Part shown: piece by piece, positions 14,237 to 63,325 of the stretch
Numbering within the stretch: position 1 is the first letter of the stretch
Layout of the letters: each line of letters begins with the position of its first letter
Assembly (NCBI RefSeq): GCF_000768875.1
Contig: NZ_JRAO01000030.1
Location: forward strand, 62,001 to 126,000
Source of the DNA: Porphyromonas sp. COT-239 OH1446
GTDB taxonomy: Bacteria; Bacteroidota; Bacteroidia; Bacteroidales; Porphyromonadaceae
Length of the DNA stretch: 64,000 nt
Direction: 5' to 3'
Translations under genes and position numbers: made by a program
Notes under the pieces: model-generated
What the model was told of the DNA's origin: nothing
Database searches by the model: none
The model's input: the letters and a program-made list of their open reading frames with translations, nothing else

Positions 14237-14557
14237 CTCCAGGTCGATCCTATTCTTCTCTTGAGCGAAGCTCTATCCTCTCCTCACTTAAGTTCTTACT
14301 GATGCCTCTGTGGGGTTCTATTTAGATCTCTATGGAGCTCCTATTTGGATCTCACTTGCGCTCCTATTTGTGCCTCTATTGAGGCCCTATTTAGATCTCT
14401 ATGGAGCTCCTATTTGGATCTCATTTGCGCTCCTATTTGTGCCTCTATTGAGGCCCTATTTAGATCTCTATGGAGCTCCTATTTGGATCTCACTTGCGTT
14501 CCTACTTATGCCTCTATTGAGGCTCTATTTAGATCTCTATGGAGCTACTCCCCAGGC
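14237..14557 (+). repeat. 23-bp phased repeat array 2 (about 14 units) with 69-bp higher-order repeat
   Basis: Units begin at 14237, 14260, 14283, 14306 (this one is 22 bp), 14328, 14351, 14374, 14397, 14420, 14443, 14466, 14489, 14512 and 14535. From 14328 to 14534 three units form a 69-bp block repeated three times almost without change (block starts 14328, 14397, 14466), which implies recent tandem duplication. Because 69 is a multiple of three, open frames run through it, but they are repeat artefacts. The array lies between the divergent galM and tamB genes. Confidence 0.9.
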
Positions 14558-32219: not shown

Positions 32220-32430
32220 ATCATTGTTTACAGTTTTTGCTCATCCTCGGCACACTTTGTCGTCGTTGGCTCTTGAGAGGCTCTCTCTGTCCTCATCATG
32301 CCCCCTCTTCGAGGGGCACTCGATGGGGCTTGGGCTTCGCTGGGGTTGGGGTGGGGAGAGGCCCTCTGTCCCTCTGTGCAGAGAACTCCTGGGGACATCT
32401 CTCCCGAGCTCTCGATAGGCTCTCTCCTGA

Positions 32431-32478
32431 GCTCTCGTCTAGCTCCTCGCCTGCGCTCTCGTCTAGCTCCTCGCCTGC
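32431..32478 (+). repeat. 24-bp tandem repeat, two copies
   Basis: GCTCTCGTCTAGCTCCTCGC plus CTGC occurs at 32431-32454 and 32455-32478, followed by the start of a third copy. It lies in the C/T-rich gap upstream of the OMP gene. Confidence 0.8.
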
Positions 32479-32499
32479 GCTCTCGGATGGAGCTCACTA

Positions 32500-32561
32500 G
32501 AGACCCAAGTAGGATCTCCATCGAGACTCAAATAGGATCTCAACAGAGACCCAAGTAGGAT
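32500..32561 (-). repeat. 23-bp phased repeat array 4 (3 units, reverse direction)
   Basis: Units at 32500, 32523 and 32546 each begin GAGAC and carry AAGTAGGATC or AAATAGGATC, the reverse complement of the core in the other arrays. The gap 32069-32594 otherwise holds only the -7 element and the 24-bp tandem repeat; I see no gene there. Confidence 0.75.
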
Positions 32562-32594
32562 CAATAGGCAGGGACGAACTTACGGCCTATCCCA

Positions 32595-34365: not shown

Positions 34366-34677
34366 ATGAAGAAAGTATCATTTGTACTCGCTCTTGCACT
34401 TGCTCTCGTGGTTAGTGCTTGTAACTCAAACAAGCAGGCTACTGCTACAAGCGAAGAGGCTACCAAGACTTGCGTATGCCAGGACTCTTGTGCTTGCACG
34501 CCCGACAACTTCTGCTCAGATGCCTGTGCTGTAGCTGAGAAGAAGGATTGCTGCGCTGGTGAGGCTCAGGGCGAAGGCTCTTGCGAAGAAGGCAAGGGTT
34601 GCGAGGAAGGTAAGGGCTGCGACAAGGCCAAGGGTTGTGAAGAAGCCAAGGGCTCCGCAGAGGCTAAGGCTAACTAA
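34366..34677 (+). CDS. Cysteine-rich lipoprotein with GC-x-x-x-KG repeats
   Basis: 103 residues. A lipoprotein signal (MKKVSFVLALALALVVSAC, lipid Cys at 19) is followed by a mature chain with 14 further cysteines: clusters CVCQDSCAC, FCSDACA and DCC, then a C-terminal tract repeating GCEEGKG / GCDKAKG / GCEEAKG. Cys spacing like this can bind metals, as in metallothioneins, but no homologous family is recognised. It is monocistronic with a strong terminator. Metal storage or redox buffering at the cell envelope is a guess. Confidence 0.8.
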   Translation: MKKVSFVLALALALVVSACNSNKQATATSEEATKTCVCQDSCACTPDNFCSDACAVAEKKDCCAGEAQGEGSCEEGKGCEEGKGCDKAKGCEEAKGSAEAKAN

Positions 34678-49340: not shown

Positions 49341-49430
49341 TTTGCTTCTCAACACTATCGAGCGACCTCGTCTCTCCCTCCTCATCGGAGGGGAGTGATG
49401 GGGTCGCTTCTTCATTTTATCTTGACACCT

Positions 49431-50639
49431 ATGTCTGTGGATGTTACTGCTGAGGGCCTACTCGAGGCTTTTGTACGCTATATGGCATATGAGCGCAATG
49501 CTTCGGAGCAGACCCTGGTGGGCTATCGAGGAGATCTCGAGGCCTATATCGCTTACTGTCGGGAGCGTTTGGGTGAGGAGTTTGCGCCCAGTGCAGGCGA
49601 TCTTGACCTTGTGCGAGGCTGGCTCTCGGGGATGATGGATCGGGGGGGGAAGGCCAGTTCGGTGGCTCGGCGTCTATCCTCGGCGAAGAGCTGGTATCGA
49701 TACCTCGTTAAGGTGGGTTATCTCTCCAGCTCCCCCATCGTCTCGCTCAAGGCTCCTCGGCAGGAGCGGCCTTTGCCAGCCTATGTGCCTACGAGCGAGC
49801 TGGAGCGCATCCTCGAGCCTGTGGAGTCCCCCTCGTTGCGAGAGGTGCGAGATCGGCTCGTTGTGGCCACGCTCTACGAATGTGGCCTAAGACGAAGCGA
49901 GCTGGCTGCTCTGCGCACGATTGATGTAGACCTGGAGCGTCGTAGCCTCAAGGTTGTGGGCAAGGGCGATAAGGAGCGCATTGTCCCCTTTGGGATCTCT
50001 TTGGCTCAGATGATGCAGCAGTGGAGTGAAATCAGGGATCGTGAATTTGGTGGTTCTGATTCTTTTTTTTTAACTTTGAAGGGAAAGCCTATGAAAGGGA
50101 GCGATGTCTACTCCATCGTAAGGGCGCAGCTAGCCTCTGTCCCCAATCTCGCTCGCCGTGGGGCGCATACGCTGAGGCATTCGTTTGCCACGGATATGCT
50201 CAACTCGGGAGCTGATCTGCTCAAGCTCAAGGAGCTTATGGGACACAGCTCTGTCGCCACGACTGTACAGTACACGCACACTTCCTTCAGACAGCTACAA
50301 CAGGTGTATCACGCTCATCCTAGAGCACAAAACAACACAACGATTATGGACATCAGAATTCAAGCCTTGCATTTCGATGCAACCGAGCAGCTCAAAGAGT
50401 TTATCCGTAAGAAGCTCGACAAGCTCAACCGCTTTGCCGACGATATTCAGGCGGCAGAGGTATTGCTCAAGGTGGTTAAGCCCGAGGTCTCCGAAAATAA
50501 AGAAGCGTCTGTTAAGCTGCTCATCAGCGGTAATGATCTATTCGTGGACAAGGTCGCAGACACCTTCGAGGAGGCAATAGACCTCTGTGTAGATGTCCTC
50601 AAGAGGGGATTGGAGAAGCGCAAGGAGGCACATAAGTAG
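49431..50639 (+). CDS. xerC: XerC-type tyrosine recombinase fused in frame to HPF
   Basis: 402 residues in a single uninterrupted frame. Residues 1-299 are a tyrosine recombinase: SAM-like N-domain (about 5-95), then catalytic residues Arg154/155 (CGLRRSEL), His246-xx-Arg249 (AHTLRH), His272 (LMGHSS) and the nucleophile Tyr281 (VQYTHTS). Recombinases of this kind resolve chromosome dimers at dif. They normally end about HAHPRA, but here the frame continues through QNNTTI into Met306, the first residue of a complete hibernation factor. In Bacteroidota the two genes are usual neighbours, so loss of the intervening stop is the simplest explanation. Start 49431 is preferred; ATG 49398 is possible. 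A run of nine T lies inside the gene near 50063-50071. Confidence 0.85.
   Translation: MSVDVTAEGLLEAFVRYMAYERNASEQTLVGYRGDLEAYIAYCRERLGEEFAPSAGDLDLVRGWLSGMMDRGGKASSVARRLSSAKSWYRYLVKVGYLSSSPIVSLKAPRQERPLPAYVPTSELERILEPVESPSLREVRDRLVVATLYECGLRRSELAALRTIDVDLERRSLKVVGKGDKERIVPFGISLAQMMQQWSEIRDREFGGSDSFFLTLKGKPMKGSDVYSIVRAQLASVPNLARRGAHTLRHSFATDMLNSGADLLKLKELMGHSSVATTVQYTHTSFRQLQQVYHAHPRAQNNTTIMDIRIQALHFDATEQLKEFIRKKLDKLNRFADDIQAAEVLLKVVKPEVSENKEASVKLLISGNDLFVDKVADTFEEAIDLCVDVLKRGLEKRKEAHK
50346..50639 (+). CDS. hpf: Ribosome hibernation promoting factor HPF, in frame with xerC
   Basis: 97 residues if translation starts at the ATG at 50346, which is also codon 306 of the joined frame. The sequence fits short HPF/RaiA: MDIRIQALHFDATEQLKEFI, KLDKLNRFADDIQAAEVLLK, and 'ADTFEEAIDLCVDVLKRGLE'. 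HPF binds idle ribosomes and blocks the mRNA channel. It may be made on its own from this ATG, as an extension of XerC, or both; the sequence alone does not decide. A strong terminator follows 22 bp after the stop. Confidence 0.88.
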   Translation: MDIRIQALHFDATEQLKEFIRKKLDKLNRFADDIQAAEVLLKVVKPEVSENKEASVKLLISGNDLFVDKVADTFEEAIDLCVDVLKRGLEKRKEAHK

Positions 50640-52003: not shown

Positions 52004-52185
52004 GAGACCTCAATAGGTCGACCTCGAGGTCTAAATAGGATTATTTTTGAGATCTAAATAAGGCCTTCGTTGAGGGTCTTATTAGGGTTGTCGTTGAGGC
52101 ATAAGTAGGAGTTCGGTTGCGCTCCTACTTATGCCTCGATCGAGATCCTATCTATGTCTCAGTCGAGATCTTTACAAGATCTCAT
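52004..52185. repeat. 23-bp phased repeat array 5, with a perfect head-to-head hairpin
   Basis: Reverse-direction units occupy about 52004-52111 (starts 52026, 52049, then one 24-nt unit at 52072, then 52096). Forward units follow from 52119. At the switch, GAGGCATAAGTAGGAG (52096-52111) and CTCCTACTTATGCCTC (52122-52137) are perfectly complementary around the 10-nt centre TTCGGTTGCG. Confidence 0.85.
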
Positions 52186-55808: not shown

Positions 55809-55912
55809 AAAACGTATACGTTTCGCGTCGAAAACGTATACGTTTTGGGCTGAAAACGTATACGTTTTGCATTGAAAACGTATACGTTTTAGGCGGGAAA
55901 GGTATACGTCTT
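55809..55912. repeat. 22-bp tandem array of the palindrome AAAACGTATACGTTTT
   Basis: Five units start at 55809, 55831, 55853, 55875 and 55897. The middle three have the exact 16-bp palindrome AAAACGTATACGTTTT, the first has AAAACGTATACGTTTC and the last GAAAGGTATACGTCTT. Spacers of 6 bp differ in sequence (CGCGTCGA region, GGGCTG, GCATTG, AGGCGG), while the period is constant. The centres are about two helical turns apart, as expected for a dimeric regulator binding one face of DNA. It ends about 138 bp before the DUF6361 gene. Confidence 0.92.
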
Positions 55913-55944
55913 GCTTGAGAAGGGTATTGGGGAGGGCTCAACCC

Positions 55945-56049: not shown

Positions 56050-57294
56050 ATGATCGGATGGATAGACTTCTCTGCTGAGGATCGTGCATTAGCCCTACAG
56101 ATCCTCAATCAAGGCATTCAACCCCTTGACGAGCTGGGTGTCGGAGCGATCCGAGACACCTTCTCAGACCTCCTCTTCCCAGGCCTAACGACGCAGCAGA
56201 CAAGGGCGAAGTACTTCTGCCTCATCCCTCGTCTCTTGCAGGAGCTCGTCGCCCATGCCCCCCTCGAGGCAAGCACGGACGAACTGCTCGAGAAGCTACA
56301 CCTCGAGGAGCGAACTCTAGCCGAGCAGATGATCAAGCAGGCAGAGCGGCCATTGGGTATTATTGGGCATCGCTCGCTGCGCTCAGGGCGTTGGGTCAAG
56401 ATCGCTCCCTCGAGCATCTATTGGAGTGGTCTGAGGCGTTGGGGGATCTTCCTCGGTAGGGAAAGGAGCATCCGAGAGTACCTCGACGAGGCGATGGACG
56501 AGCGGCGGATGCGTAGGGAGGCCCAAGCCTTCCGCAAGGGAGGAGCTTATAGAGCCCCTCATGATGATCCCTGGGACGATGACCTCCAGGGAGCTGGGAG
56601 CATGGCTCGAGAGCCCTCGTGGCATCGAGACTTTCGCCCCGAGAGGGCAGGCTGGCGCATGGAGATCTCGATCCAGCTGACTAGAGACGAGGCCGAGGCT
56701 TTGGTCGATCGGATCTCGTCCGCCTGCCGAGATTCCCTCCTGCCCTATATGCTCTCGCCTTCGCTGGCCGAGCTGCTCGGGGCTTCGTATACAGCCTTCG
56801 CCGAGAGGCTGCTCGAGGAGGGCTCTCTTCCCGAGCAGCTCGCAGAGACTCTTCGGCTGAGCCTAGAGTTCTCCACCTTCATGGGTCAGGCCCTAGGGGT
56901 GTACAAAGCCCTTGTGGAGGTGGGTGAGGCCGAGCTCAACCCCGAGGATATTGCTCCGCTACCGCTTCGTCTAGAGCATATCTTCGCCCTTAGGTCTCAA
57001 CCTCTGCATGCTATAGATCTCGAGACGCAGACCTTCGTTCGTCGATTGAGCGAGGCCTTCGCCTTGGAGTATAGCCCTGAGAAGGTTGAGCTCGTCTGTC
57101 GCCTTATTCGTGAGCGGGAGCGTAGCCTCAAGGCCGAGCATAGCCGCATTGGCCGCTCGGAGCAACGTCCTATCTCTCGCTCCGAACTGACCTATCGCTT
57201 CCCCACGGCTTGCCAGCTGGCGAAGGATATTACCCAAGCCTTGAACGAACCCTCATCCCCCTCCACCTCTCCGTATGTTTCGCCCCGAGCATGA
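56050..57294 (+). CDS. DUF6361 family protein, first gene of a nuclease-helicase operon
   Basis: 414 residues from the ATG at 56050; an open frame continues upstream to 55915 but the family begins at MIGWIDFSAEDRALALQILN. Further family-like stretches are LDELGVGAIRDTFSDLLFPG (about 26-45) and TRAKYFCLIPRLLQELV (51-67). The rest is mainly helical and charged, with a low-complexity RRMRREAQAFRKGG stretch. No enzymatic motif is visible. In this operon it probably acts as the structural or recognition partner of the PLD and helicase proteins. The next gene starts 20 bp before its stop, so translation is likely coupled. Confidence 0.85.
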   Translation: MIGWIDFSAEDRALALQILNQGIQPLDELGVGAIRDTFSDLLFPGLTTQQTRAKYFCLIPRLLQELVAHAPLEASTDELLEKLHLEERTLAEQMIKQAERPLGIIGHRSLRSGRWVKIAPSSIYWSGLRRWGIFLGRERSIREYLDEAMDERRMRREAQAFRKGGAYRAPHDDPWDDDLQGAGSMAREPSWHRDFRPERAGWRMEISIQLTRDEAEALVDRISSACRDSLLPYMLSPSLAELLGASYTAFAERLLEEGSLPEQLAETLRLSLEFSTFMGQALGVYKALVEVGEAELNPEDIAPLPLRLEHIFALRSQPLHAIDLETQTFVRRLSEAFALEYSPEKVELVCRLIRERERSLKAEHSRIGRSEQRPISRSELTYRFPTACQLAKDITQALNEPSSPSTSPYVSPRA

Positions 57295-59116
57295 TCGCTT
57301 AGACTACGTTCGCCTCCTCCTCCCCCCAGAGGGCTACAGCCTGGAGGCGGCCCTCGGCACCAGCTATAGCGTGGAGCTCGAATATTTGCTGTCGGTGTGT
57401 ATGCGCCTGCATGCTGGGGGGAGGGGCGAGGGCCCTTCGGCTTCTATTCGTCCGCTGGAGGCCTGGATGGCACTGAGGCATCTCGAGGGGCGTTTGCTGT
57501 TCTTTCACGACAACCGCAGGCTTTCGGCTCGGACCGAGGGGGCATGGAGCGGCTTCGCCCACTTCGAATCAATCCTTGTCCCGATCCGCATGCGCCGAGG
57601 GGAGGCCTCCTTCCACCCCAAAATGTGGCTCTTGTGCTACAAGAGTCGAGAGACTGAGGAGCGTCGCTGCCGCCTCGTCGTCATGAGCCGTAACCTGACG
57701 AGCGACCGAAGTTGGGATGTCGCCGTTGCCCTCGAGGGATACGAGGCCGCCCAAGCTCCCAAGGGTGTTGTCAGTCTTGAGGGCCTTCGCCCCATGCTCG
57801 ACTACCTTCATCGTCGAATTCCCACTTCCGTCCATGCTAGGGTGCAGAGGCAGCTGATGGGACGGATGATGCAGTGCTCCGAGGGGTTGCTCTGGCAGCT
57901 ACCCCGAGGCTTCAAAGCTGCCGAGCTCATTCCCCTACTGCCCGGTGGAGCACGAATGGACTGGGACGAGCTGGGACGAGCCCACCAGCTCACGGTCATC
58001 ACCCCCTTCCTCACGCCCCAGGTGATCCGGAGGTTACTCCCCGACAAACCCTCCTCGGCGAGGCATCGACGGGTGCTCTTCTCACGACGTCGGGCCCTCT
58101 CGGCCTTGCCTCGTGAGAGCTTCGATGCCTTCGAGATCTATGCCCTAAGGGAGGGCATCGTCGAGGGAGAGCGAGCCCTAGAGCAGTCCGAGTATGAGCC
58201 CCGCCCACAGGATATACATGCCAAGATGTACCTCTACGAGAGGGGCGCAGACAGACGTCTCTACCTCGGATCGTTGAATGCCACGAGAGCGGCCCTCGAG
58301 TACAACGTCGAGCTCCTGCTGAGGTTAGATCTCTCTGGGCAGAGCTTGACTACCGAAGCCCTTCTAGACGAACTGTTGGGTGCTGGGAAGGAGGGGAGTC
58401 GATCGCCCTTCTTCCTCCTTGAGGAAGGCTGCCTCGAAGCTGCAGATACAGAGGCCGAGAGCGAAGTCGAGCGGATGAAGCATCTGCTCGACAGCCTTTG
58501 CCGTCTCTCTTGTACCACTCACCTCGAGCAGATGCCTGGGGTCTCGACAGATCTACCTCGCTATCGGTTATGCCTCAGTTTCGACAAGCTCCCCAGGAGC
58601 GAATATTCGCTCTTGATACGCCCTCTCCTGGGGCATCGCTGGCAGGCCCTCTCGTCCGAGATCACCTTCGATGACCTCTTGCTCACGGAGGTATCCGATT
58701 ACTTCCTCGTGGCCCTCGATGGCAGTAGTATGCATCGTGTGCTTACCCTGCCATTGCATTGGCCCGAGGGCTCTGCCCTGAGGGAGCAGAGGGAGCATGA
58801 GCTCTATGCCGAAACCATCCCCGATGAGGAGACGCTGCTCGAGGCCCTTTGGCTTCACCTGACTGGTAGGCCTCGGTTTGCCCTTCGAGAGGCTATAGAT
58901 TTGGAGGGATGCCCCGCCCCTCTAGGGCAGCGATCCGCTAGAGGCCTCTTTGCCCCCTCGCTCTACGAGAGCGTGCTGAGAGCCTGCGCCGAACGGCCCG
59001 AGCAGATCCTGGGGCTGGTGCGTGAGATCCAAATGTACCGCCAGTATAGCTCCGCAGAGCTCTCCTTTGAGCTCCTCGGACTCTATCAGGTATTATCACA
59101 GATGTTTAAGTCATGA
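57275..59116 (+). CDS. Phospholipase-D-like protein with two HKD motifs
   Basis: 613 residues. Two HKD half-sites are visible. The first is SFHPKMWLL (His114, Lys116) followed by VVMSRNLTSD (Ser138, Asn140); the second is DIHAKMYLY (His315, Lys317) followed by LYLGSLNATRAAL (Gly332, Ser333, Asn335). This is the pseudo-dimer layout of PLD-superfamily enzymes. Given the helicase partner, a nuclease is more likely than a lipase. The C-terminal ~250 residues contain no recognisable motif. There is no signal peptide or membrane span, so it acts in the cytoplasm. Its stop overlaps the helicase ATG by 4 bp (ATGA). Confidence 0.88.
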   Translation: MFRPEHDRLDYVRLLLPPEGYSLEAALGTSYSVELEYLLSVCMRLHAGGRGEGPSASIRPLEAWMALRHLEGRLLFFHDNRRLSARTEGAWSGFAHFESILVPIRMRRGEASFHPKMWLLCYKSRETEERRCRLVVMSRNLTSDRSWDVAVALEGYEAAQAPKGVVSLEGLRPMLDYLHRRIPTSVHARVQRQLMGRMMQCSEGLLWQLPRGFKAAELIPLLPGGARMDWDELGRAHQLTVITPFLTPQVIRRLLPDKPSSARHRRVLFSRRRALSALPRESFDAFEIYALREGIVEGERALEQSEYEPRPQDIHAKMYLYERGADRRLYLGSLNATRAALEYNVELLLRLDLSGQSLTTEALLDELLGAGKEGSRSPFFLLEEGCLEAADTEAESEVERMKHLLDSLCRLSCTTHLEQMPGVSTDLPRYRLCLSFDKLPRSEYSLLIRPLLGHRWQALSSEITFDDLLLTEVSDYFLVALDGSSMHRVLTLPLHWPEGSALREQREHELYAETIPDEETLLEALWLHLTGRPRFALREAIDLEGCPAPLGQRSARGLFAPSLYESVLRACAERPEQILGLVREIQMYRQYSSAELSFELLGLYQVLSQMFKS

Positions 59117-62100
59117 CTGAAGAACTGCACCTTGAGCCTTGTGAGATCGAGCGGGCAAATGAGCAGGTAGACCGAGAGCTTCGAGACTTCCAACGCTCTA
59201 CGGTCGATCGAGTTGCCGAGCGGTTTGCCTCGGGGCAAATGCGTGTCTTGGTGGCCGATGAGGTGGGCCTGGGAAAGACCTACGTCGCCCGAGGAGTGAT
59301 CGCTCGGGTTGCGAGGCAGTTGAGGGGGCAAGGGCTTCGGGTTGTCTATATCTGCTCGAGCCAGACCATTGCTCGGCAAAACCTTGCCAAGCTGAGCCTA
59401 GAGGGCTTGGCCCGTACCCCCTCCTACCGGAGCAATCTGCGCCTCTCGATGCAGCACCTTGAGCTCGCTCGATTGCGCTACGACACCCCTAGGCAGCCTT
59501 CTGCTGTACAGCTCATTGGCCTCTCGCCCTCGACCTCCTTCGAGATGACACGGGGTGAGGGCCTTGTGGACGAGCGGGCCCTGCTCTACGCCCTACTCTC
59601 AAGGCTTGGGAGCTTGAAGAGAAGCTCACGCAAGCTCTCCGATCTGCTGTGTGGATCGGTCGTCATCGAACGCTGGCAGAGGCTTCGTCAGCAATATCGA
59701 GATGAGCTCAAGAGGCTCGAGCTCTTGAGCGGTGGGGCTTATCCGATGGGGCTTCTCGAGCAGCTGGGTCGAGATCCCATCCTCCGAGAGATCGAGGCCT
59801 GCTTGAGAGGGGAGGAGGGGGCGATGCCTAGAGGCGAACTTATCCGCCGCCTTCGCCTATCGATGGCTCGGTACAGTGTCGGTGAGCTCAGGGCTGACCT
59901 AGTCATCATGGATGAGTTTCAACGCTTCCGCTCCATGCTCGACCTCTCTGATGAGAGTGAGATGGGGATGCTTACGAGAGCCTTCTTCGAGCGGGAAGAG
60001 ACCCGCATCCTGCTGCTCTCGGCGACTCCGTACAAGCTCTACGAGACCATGGATGAAGTTGAGGAGCGGGGCGGCGAGGAGCTACACGAGCGAGACTTCA
60101 GAGCGGTGCGAGAGTTCCTTCTGTCCTCTGCCCAGGCTCGAGAGGCTTTCGATCGCTCCTGGGGGGCTTATGCCCGTTCACTGAGGCAGGCCAAAGGACT
60201 CTCTGAGGAGATGCTAGCCCTCAAGAGCAGCTCTGAAGAGCTCCTCTACAGCATCATCTGCCGCACCGAACGAGTGGCCATGGCTGGCGGGATAGACAGC
60301 CTCGATGATAGCTCGACGAGGCGATCGCTGGAGATCCATGAGCAGGATCTGAGGGGATATATCGACCTAAGTCGCTTGCTCCGAGCCGCAGGACTCGGCG
60401 AACGTCTACTCGTAGACTATGCCAAGAGCTGCCCCTGTCCGCTCTCTTTCCTCTCGGGCTATGACATCCGCAATCGTCTCGTGAAGGCCGCTCGAGAGCA
60501 ACCCCATCTGCGCTCCCGAAAGGCCCTGGGCCTGCCTCGTCTGTGGATCGACAAGGGGGGGGTCATCGAGCACTATAAGCCACTGCGTCTGCACCATGCG
60601 AGCCTCGATTATCTCAGGCGAGAGGCCTTCGCCCACTCGGCTGAGAGGCTGCTGTGGATCCCCCCATCCCTTCCCTATTACCCCCTCCGAGGGGCCTATG
60701 CCGGGGCTCAAGGGTTCAGTAAGATCCTGGCTTTCTCGTCCTGGGAGATGGCCCCTCGTATGATCGCCACCCTCCTCTCCTACGAGGCAGAGCAGCGCAC
60801 TATTGGTCGGCTCGTGGGTAGTCAAAAGGCTGGCTACTTCAAGCCTCGCACTCCCTCGCCTCAGCTGAGGGTGCAGCTTCGGGAGGGGCGTATCAGTGGA
60901 GGAACGGCCCTCACACTCCTCTATCCTGCTCACAGCTTGGCTGAGCTGTGGAGGCCTGCCGACAGTCTGCGCTTGGGGCAGAGCCCAGCCCAGCTTCGCT
61001 CGCAGATCAAGAAGGTCCTAGGCTCGCATATAGAGCAGCTCGAGAGGCTCTACCAAAGGCCTGGGGCTCGTCGAGTGGATGAGGATTGGTACTTCTTGGC
61101 TCCGATGTTGCTTGATGATCGAACCTACTGCCTAGACTGGCTAAGAGCCCAGTCTGTCCTCGCCTCAGAGGGGAGCTTGACAGGACGAGGAAGGGTCGCA
61201 AGGCTTCTAGACCAGAGGTTGGATGCCCTCTATACTCGCACCAAACTGCTTGGGGCGATGCCCTCCGATCTCATCGATGTGCTCTGCGACATGACCCTGG
61301 CCTCGCCTGCTGTCTGCTGGCGGAGGACTATGGGTGGGGAGATTGAGCTTCGGAAGGTCGTGCGGGTCGTCGAAGCCTTTGTCTGCCAGCTCGATAGCCC
61401 CGAGAGCATTGCGGCTGTGCTGCTAGCCCAGGGGCATAGACGCACCAGGGGATACTGGCGCAACCTCTTGTCCTACTGTCGAGATGGCTGCCTACAGGCT
61501 GTGGTCGATGAATATTGGCATCTCGTGGGAGAGTCTCCCGAGGCCCCTCAGCTTATCGAGGAGGCTCTTAGTCTGCAAACAGCCTCGTACAAGGTCGATA
61601 CCTATAGGAGCTTCTTGACCGAATGCCTCTCACCCGAGGTCAAGAGCAGGTCTCGTATGTCGATGCGCACGCACTTTGCCGTCTGTCTCTCCTCTGGGGA
61701 GGAGGGCACACGGAGGATAGATCGTAGAGAGCAGGTTCGTCTGGCCTTCAATAGTCCTCTTAGGCCCTTTGTCCTGGCCTCTACGTCGGTAGGGCAAGAG
61801 GGCTTAGACTTTCACCTCTATTGTCGCAGGGTGATGCACTGGAATTTACCTCGTAACCCCATAGATCTAGAGCAGCGAGAGGGGCGAGTCAATCGCTACA
61901 AATGCCTCTCGGTGCGGCAGAGCTTGCCCGACCTCTTCGCCGATTGGAGAGATCTCCGAGGGGGGGAGATCTGGTCAGAGCTCTTCGATCTAGCCCAGGG
62001 GCTAAGACCGCAGGATCAGCCCTCGGATCTCTTCCCCTACTGGAGTCTGGGGAAGTGGCAATCGGTTAAGATCGAACGCCTTGTGCCGATGTACCCTCTG

Positions 62101-62328
62101 AGCCAAGATCAGGGGCGATACGAACGGATCAAGCAGATTGTCTCGCTCTATAGGATGACGCTCGGTCAGCCGAGGCAGGAGGAGCTGCTCGATGCTCTGA
62201 GGGCAAGGATGACCAGGCAGGAGTGTGCTCGTCTCTTCTTTGATCTGAGCCCTTACTCGAGGGAGCTTCGCCCTGAGGGGCTCGAGGAGGAAGGAGAGCA
62301 GGACGGTTGCCCTGCTGCGGGCAGTTGA
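59113..62328 (+). CDS. Large SNF2-type (superfamily 2) DNA helicase
   Basis: 1071 residues. After an N-terminal [19 protein letters not shown] (about 23-41) come Walker A DEVGLGKT (49-56), motif II DEFQ (267-270) in [13 protein letters not shown], and motif [14 protein letters not shown] (near 300-310). A long insert (about 310-870) with little recognisable motif separates the two RecA-like halves. The second half has [16 protein letters not shown] (motif V, near 888) and [15 protein letters not shown] (motif VI, arginine finger). This is the SNF2-like pattern of helicases in defence loci. It ends the operon, and the rsgA promoter overlaps its end. Confidence 0.9.
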
Positions 62329-62368: not shown

Positions 62369-63325
62369 ATGAAGGTAATCCAAGGCTTAGTCATTCGCAA
62401 TACAGGCAGCCATTATCTGACCCTCTGCGACGATGGAGAGGAGCGTGCCTGTCTAGCCAAGGGCAATCTGCGCCTCAGGGGCATTCGCTCGACCAACCCT
62501 ATCGCTGTGGGCGATCGGGTGGAGGTAGTCATCACGCCCGAGGGGGCAGGGGAGGCACATTACATTCGTGAGATCCTGCCTCGGCGCAACTATATTGTTC
62601 GTCGGGCGGCCAACCTTTCCAAGCTCTCGCATATCTTGGCAGCCAATGTCGATGCCTCCTTCCTCATCTGTACGATCGCAGCCCCCGAGACCAGCACGAC
62701 TTTCATTGATCGCTTCCTCGCCACGGCCGAGGCCTATCGAGTGCCGACGGAGTTGGTCTTCAACAAGGTCGATCTCTACACCCCCGAGGCCTTGGCTTAC
62801 CTCGAGGAATTGGTTGAGCTCTATACGGGCATCGGTTACCCCTGTCATCGAGTCTCAGCCATCACGGGGGTGGGGATGGATGCATTGCGTTCTCGTATCT
62901 CGGGCCGCATTACCCTCTTCAGTGGCCACTCGGGGGTGGGCAAGAGTACGCTCATCAATGCCCTCATCCCTGGGGCTGATCTGCGAACGGGCGACATTTC
63001 GATGGCGCATGATACAGGGATGCACACGACGACCTTCTCACAGATGATCCCCCTACCTGGGGGGGACAGAGGCTACCTGATCGATACGCCTGGCATCAAA
63101 GGCTTTGGCACGCTGGATATGCAGGAGAGCGAAGTCTCGCACTACTTCCCCGAGATCTTCGCCCGAGCTGAGGAATGCCGCTTCGGCAACTGTACCCATA
63201 CCCACGAGCCAGGCTGTGCTGTGCGGGTGGCTCTCGATAGGGGAGAGATCGCCGCCTCTCGTTACATCAGCTATCTCGGCATCCTAGAGGATAAAGAGGA
63301 GGGCAAATATCGTCCCGAATACTAA
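62369..63325 (+). CDS. rsgA: Ribosome small-subunit-dependent GTPase RsgA
   Basis: 318 residues. The order of parts is that of circularly permuted RsgA: an OB domain ([30 protein letters not shown]), G4 FNKVDL, G1 [15 protein letters not shown], the DTGMHTT switch and G3 DTPGIKGFG, and a C-terminal zinc site [14 protein letters not shown]. It checks late 30S ribosome assembly. It has its own promoter, so it is not tied to the upstream defence-like operon. Confidence 0.96.

Follow-up and report, generated by a model that had tools for sequence, protein, structure and literature searches.

Organization of the locus

The window, i.e., the 64,000-nucleotide stretch of Porphyromonas sp. COT-239 OH1446 DNA that was analyzed here, harbors three co-directional genes on the plus strand at positions 56050-62328, which are designated zacA, zacB, and zacC in accordance with the assignment given below. 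The zacA gene (56050-57294) encodes a DUF6361 protein of 414 aa, zacB (57275-59116) a PLD-superfamily protein of 613 aa with two HKD half-sites, and zacC (59113-62328) a SNF2-type SF2 helicase/translocase of 1071 aa. The mechanical ORF list begins zacA at an upstream TTG (55915); the ATG at 56050 was used throughout. The first two genes overlap by 20 bp (57275-57294) and the last two by the tetranucleotide ATGA (59113-59116). Simple scans of the locus for promoters and terminators yielded numbers close to those of shuffled sequences (3 vs. a mean of 2.2, and 4 vs. a mean of 4.6, respectively), and the reading of zacABC as a single unit is thus based on the gene overlaps and on their conservation among relatives.

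Downstream of zacC lies rsgA (62369-63325). In the seven genomes examined of the 25 others available for the genus, the genes directly preceding rsgA were read as pyrH and frr. The frr gene of the window's genome is located on a different contig from the operon and rsgA, thus indicating that the operon occupies a junction unlike that of its relatives. The window contains 30 other ORFs of 250 aa or more; nine of these were examined, and no further defense gene was detected among them, so that they give no indication of a defense island around this copy. An array of a 22-bp palindrome is located directly upstream of zacA, and the palindrome is found at five places in the same genome. Arrays of two units are also present in three of the 25 other genomes of the genus, none of which has a match to ZacC. 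We therefore rejected the idea that the array is a specific operator or self-recognition site of the operon, since it represents a genome-wide repeat that also forms arrays in genomes without a ZacC match.

Assignment to the Azaca system

The comparison with PADLOC-DB returned a nearly full-length match for each of the three proteins. ZacA matches the model PDLC03828 (9.7e-80; residues 1-399 of 414 vs. profile positions 4-395 of 396), ZacB the model PDLC03829 (1e-117; residues 1-612 vs. 1-582 of 586), and ZacC the model PDLC03830 (7e-285; residues 16-1049 vs. 6-1018 of 1019). For none of the three did an NCBIfam model reach its cut-off. Nearly full-length matches in the range of 1e-80 to 1e-285, together with the conserved synteny described below, place the trio beyond chance similarity. 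All components of Azaca are found at the locus: a ZacA homolog, a PLD protein with its predicted catalytic residues intact, and a SNF2-type helicase with its motifs intact, encoded in one operon in the order A-B-C, with overlaps of 20 and 4 bp and the same order in the relatives. Judged from these sequence comparisons, the family identity of the trio as Azaca is close to certain, and the operon very probably represents an intact Azaca anti-phage system (ZacA-ZacB-ZacC). It is, on the same evidence, a new copy of an already named system with an ordinary make-up, and not a new system.

Azaca was reportedly validated against phage by Millman et al. in 2022. In the Hachiman paper, “Azaca (ZacC)” appears among the DefenseFinder systems (PMC12278908), and the Hachiman preprint places ZacC in SF2_SNF2 (PMC10925250). 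The domain table of a review assigns a PLD-like domain to Azaca, for which it cites Millman et al. 2022 (PMC10952713). Further papers give the mechanism of Azaca as unknown (PMC12926258; PMC10482375), report the system from a genomic-island hotspot of Pseudomonas (PMC12629846), and describe it as rare in archaea (PMC13321033). A paper on the mechanism of Azaca was not found in the open-access literature searched, and a search of this literature for DUF6361 gave no result.

The preliminary description of this locus had reported three overlapping genes (56050-62328; overlaps of 20 bp and ATGA) for a DUF6361 protein, a two-HKD PLD protein, and a SNF2 helicase, which it took to form one operon, a candidate system for DNA-targeting defense distinct from DISARM. 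The anatomy is confirmed by the ORF coordinates and the composition by the family matches, the operon is borne out by the overlaps and their conservation among relatives, and a role in DNA-targeting defense remains probable. Component make-up and scores also agree with the exclusion of DISARM (see below). The statement that no validated, named system has exactly these parts does not hold, because the trio matches Azaca in PADLOC, and the literature names Azaca and its ZacC. A new defense system was rejected on these grounds, and the former candidate is now assigned to Azaca. The trio is thus a characterized system with respect to name and components; its mechanism is uncharacterized in the literature consulted.

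Conserved motifs of the three proteins

ZacC matches the Helicase_C, ResIII, and DEAD families of Pfam. Its motifs, as located by alignment, are GKT (54-56), DEFQ (267-270), SAT (303-305), and QREGRVNR (921-928). GKT, DEFQ, SAT, and GQEG as well as Q921, R922, G924, R925, and R928 are invariant in all 80 aligned sequences, and E923 is retained in 77 of them. The next PADLOC matches of ZacC are PDC-M27C (1.2e-22), DrmD (4.4e-15), DrmA (5.7e-13), BrxHI (1.1e-12), and DpdE (1.4e-10), the best stretches of which correspond to the helicase motifs. The single sequence found no solved structure, and the search with the ZacC profile gave weak similarity to RapA (2.8e-4) and to a Dicer-related helicase (9.3e-4) across the motif region.

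In ZacB, the alignment defines the first HKD half-site as H114-P-K116...N140 and the second as H315-A-K317...N335. All six residues are invariant in the 78 full-length sequences. This invariance, together with that of the helicase motifs in 80 of 80 ZacC sequences, argues for a predicted active nuclease-type site and a predicted active ATPase, for the present copy as well as for the family.

Lipid enzymes are among the members of the PLD superfamily, and annotators label ZacB a “phospholipase D family protein”, which would fit a phospholipase D that acts on lipids or an enzyme directed at membranes. In such a scenario, ZacC would lie outside any DNA-cutting machine. The Pfam match of the window's ZacB is to PLDc_2 (6.6e-5; 23.2 bits, under the cut-off of 27 of this model), and as a single sequence it has no match among solved structures. 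The profile of 49 ZacB members weakly matches exactly three solved structures at E ≤0.1, namely, NucT (3e-4), the restriction endonuclease 2c1l (4.5e-4), and R.NgoVII (6.6e-4). All of them are PLD-type nucleases, and the matching stretches are partial and cover the second HKD half and beyond. Eight Pfam families are matched at 0.01 by any of the 49 members: the generic PLDc_2 (43/49), the restriction-enzyme PLD domain RE_NgoFVII (19/49), PP_kinase_C, Tyr-DNA_phospho, and four that are found in a single member each; a lipid-specific PLD model is absent among them. In PADLOC, all 49 members match ZacB, up to 13 match one DrmC model, and two match DpdK. The similarities of ZacB, though weak and mainly located at the second half-site, hence point to nucleic-acid enzymes, and the partner ZacC is a DNA-type SNF2 motor. 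Because the solved-structure matches of the profile, weak as they are, are all to nucleases, and given the spectrum of Pfam families, a lipid enzyme is unlikely, and we rejected this identity; the corresponding scenario as a whole appears very improbable.

The Pfam match of ZacA to DUF6361 (2.3e-17) covers residues 2-134 only, and the protein carries no functional annotation. Eight residues are invariant in the 80-sequence alignment (G30, P44, Y55, G106, Y124, L210, F329, R383). No enzymatic motif was recognized in the 414 aa of the protein, its invariant residues included, and the search of the ZacA profile against solved structures returned a designed helical repeat alone, at an E-value of 0.073 that is not meaningful. 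The chances that ZacA serves as an adaptor are about even. The motif assignments of the preliminary description hold for all three proteins: the SF2/SNF2 motifs that it had placed at Walker A, DEFQ (267-270), and VI near position 925 correspond to GKT, DEFQ, and QREGRVNR, both HKD half-sites are intact, and the DUF6361 protein is devoid of a recognizable enzymatic motif.

Conservation of the trio among relatives

A scan of genome contigs with an alignment of five ZacC sequences, which was used instead of a single protein because the latter retrieved no relatives, revealed at least 538 relatives, the best 80 of which were kept, a selection that leans to the closer ones. Among these 80 loci, 73 harbor zacA, zacB, and zacC on one strand in that order, as judged by the three profiles; in some of the 73 (e.g., L040, L087, L112) one gene is matched in part. 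In the remaining seven (L060, L062, L067, L071, L075, L106, L108), a contig end falls within the operon or next to it. Plasmid records were matched by ZacB (36) and by ZacC (58), and all four plasmid loci taken carry the trio; no relative was found in the viral contigs searched. Together with the window and four stretches from further genomes, the data set comprised 89 loci. A full-length filter retained 80 ZacA, 78 ZacB, and 80 ZacC sequences (9, 11, and 9 dropped), and all three genes passed it in 71 of the 89 loci. The overlaps are widely conserved. The distance between zacA and zacB is negative in 63 of 76 full-length pairs and amounts to 7 bp at most; that between zacB and zacC is negative in 48 of 72 pairs, with -4 as the commonest value (27 pairs) and a single outlier of 937 bp.

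Distribution and phylogeny

Across 395 sampled genomes of the phylum, the searches for ZacB (E ≤1e-20), DUF6361 (≤1e-6), and ZacC (≤1e-60) each matched the same three genomes, one of which is the window's own, and none of 14 control genomes at these strict limits. DUF6361 was thus not seen outside Azaca in this sample. The shared distribution and the synteny in 73 of 80 loci document that the three genes are conserved together. Of 100 relatives, 37 match the ZacC profile at the loose limit of E ≤0.001, at which six of the 14 control genomes match too. Full-length ZacC is present in only two of them (G000, G092), a third match is a fragment at a contig end (G078), and the others are short helicase-core stretches. 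Within the genus (26 genomes), full-length ZacC is restricted to the window's genome; several others, some of them incomplete, exhibit short helicase-core matches.

In a quick ZacC tree of 80 sequences, the window protein is located on a long branch (1.34) with a top identity of 43%, and the sequences from the same order (L029) and the same class (L031) are placed elsewhere. The patchy distribution and the tree position fit a mobile system; a quick tree with a long branch is no proof of transfer.

Proposed mechanism

A DNA-targeting mechanism of the helicase-nuclease type is the reading that we moderately favor. ZacC would act as a SNF2/RapA-type translocase that uses ATP to move along double-stranded DNA, engages the incoming DNA of phages or plasmids, and delivers ZacB to it or activates ZacB there. 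Within the single chain of ZacB, the two HKD sites would come together as one PLD active site, as in metal-independent nucleases (NucT, NgoVII-type), and ZacB would then cut the foreign DNA. ZacA may be an adaptor or a specificity or regulatory subunit that holds ZacB and ZacC together or restrains both in uninfected cells. The movement of ZacC on DNA and the cutting by ZacB are deduced from what is known of SNF2 motors and PLD nucleases. One of the plasmid copies of Azaca is flanked by the hsdS and hsdR genes of a type I restriction operon, a second adjoins genes for a UvrD-type helicase and SbcCD-like proteins, and a third has an integrase and metabolic genes as neighbors. The first two neighborhoods suit a DNA-targeting role.

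Tentatively, Azaca can be envisaged as a modification-free restriction machine composed of a SNF2 translocase, a single-chain two-HKD nuclease, and a DUF6361 recognition subunit. It would spare the host without a DNA methyltransferase by sensing a physical feature of the invading DNA, such as ends, replication forks, supercoiling, or phage base modification. An abortive or suicide response, a scenario to which we assign a rather low probability, would instead imply that the complex responds to damaged DNA or to intermediates of phage replication and that ZacB then degrades all DNA, the host chromosome included, comparable to Hachiman, in which sensing falls to the helicase and the partner nuclease is set free. 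The conserved trio itself, without a methyltransferase to mark self, is in agreement with this scenario, as is the helicase-nuclease logic shared with Hachiman (described as sensor helicase HamB and effector nuclease HamA), whereas the assignment of ZacC to SF2_SNF2 and of HamB to SF2_Ski2 speaks against it. In the samples examined, zacABC represents a unit across many phyla with invariant predicted catalytic residues. These data sharpen the question of how Azaca works and make a helicase-nuclease mechanism that requires all three parts directly testable via catalytic mutants in a laboratory strain.

Comparison with known defense systems

The combination of a helicase with a PLD-superfamily protein is reminiscent of DISARM: the helicase cores of DrmD and DrmA are remotely similar to ZacC, and DrmC to those 13 or fewer of the 49 ZacB members that match its model. 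However, the window's ZacB is not among these (no DrmC match at E ≤1), the DrmA and DrmD matches of ZacC have their best stretches in the helicase motifs, and each protein scores far better with its Zac model, e.g., ZacC with 7e-285 compared with 4.4e-15 for DrmD and 5.7e-13 for DrmA; full-length equivalents of DrmC, DrmA, or DrmD were not found. Neither DrmB (DUF1998) nor a DNA methyltransferase is present among the three operon proteins and nine other large proteins of the window scanned with PADLOC; a Pfam scan of the operon proteins and of nine nearby proteins likewise revealed no methyltransferase. Azaca contains a DUF6361 subunit in addition. The probability that the operon is DISARM or a DISARM-like variant is hence negligible.

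The Dpd system modifies DNA with 7-deazaguanine. Its SNF2-type helicase DpdE is matched by the helicase core of ZacC and DpdK by two of the 49 ZacB members, but a gene for 7-deazaguanine DNA modification is absent from the Azaca trio (Pfam). HamA of Hachiman is not known to be a PLD protein. The design of a sensor helicase with an effector nuclease would be common to Hachiman and Azaca, and the two differ in that HamB is Ski2-like and ZacC SNF2-like, according to the Hachiman preprint. Membership in DISARM, Dpd, or Hachiman was rejected based on component make-up and scores.

The only solved structures resembling the ZacB profile at E ≤0.1 are the PLD-type restriction endonucleases R.NgoVII and 2c1l and the nuclease NucT, in comparison with which ZacB combines both HKD halves in a single chain with a long C-terminal region. 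With Azaca itself, the present copy shares the nearly full length of all three proteins, their order and strand, the overlapping genes, and the intact catalytic motifs. It differs in sequence divergence only, its ZacC being at most 43% identical to the other 79 sequences of the tree.

Gene neighborhood of the Azaca operon

The gene junction at the Azaca anti-phage defence operon is altered relative to that of its relatives. The rsgA gene (62369-63325) follows zacC, the last gene of the trio, whereas it is preceded by genes read as pyrH-frr in all seven of the relatives examined. In the genome of the window the pyrH-frr-like genes are located on a separate contig (C33, locus L122) and not beside rsgA.

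Tandem arrays and a composite reading frame

The opposite flank of the operon harbors, immediately 5' of zacA, a tandem array of about five 22-bp units (55809-55918), four of which contain the exact palindrome AAACGTATACGTTT. This palindrome is found at five places in the genome, and the four remaining ones are each situated between ORFs interpreted as housekeeping genes. Two-unit arrays are present in three of the 25 other genomes of the genus. Four further short tandem arrays within the window (14318-14546, 32399-32562, 34581-34669 and 52123-52170) consist of units of about 12-24 bp, plus one higher unit of 69 bp.

A single open frame at 49395-50639 combines a tyrosine recombinase (Phage_integrase) with a Ribosomal_S30AE domain. 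Matches to its two halves fall in separate frames in the relatives L114 and L115, and the joined frame may reflect either a real fusion or a sequencing slip.

Azaca within a restriction operon

On the Haliscomenobacter plasmid pHALHY01 (locus L026), the Azaca trio lies inside a type I restriction operon, flanked by hsdS on one side and hsdR on the other.
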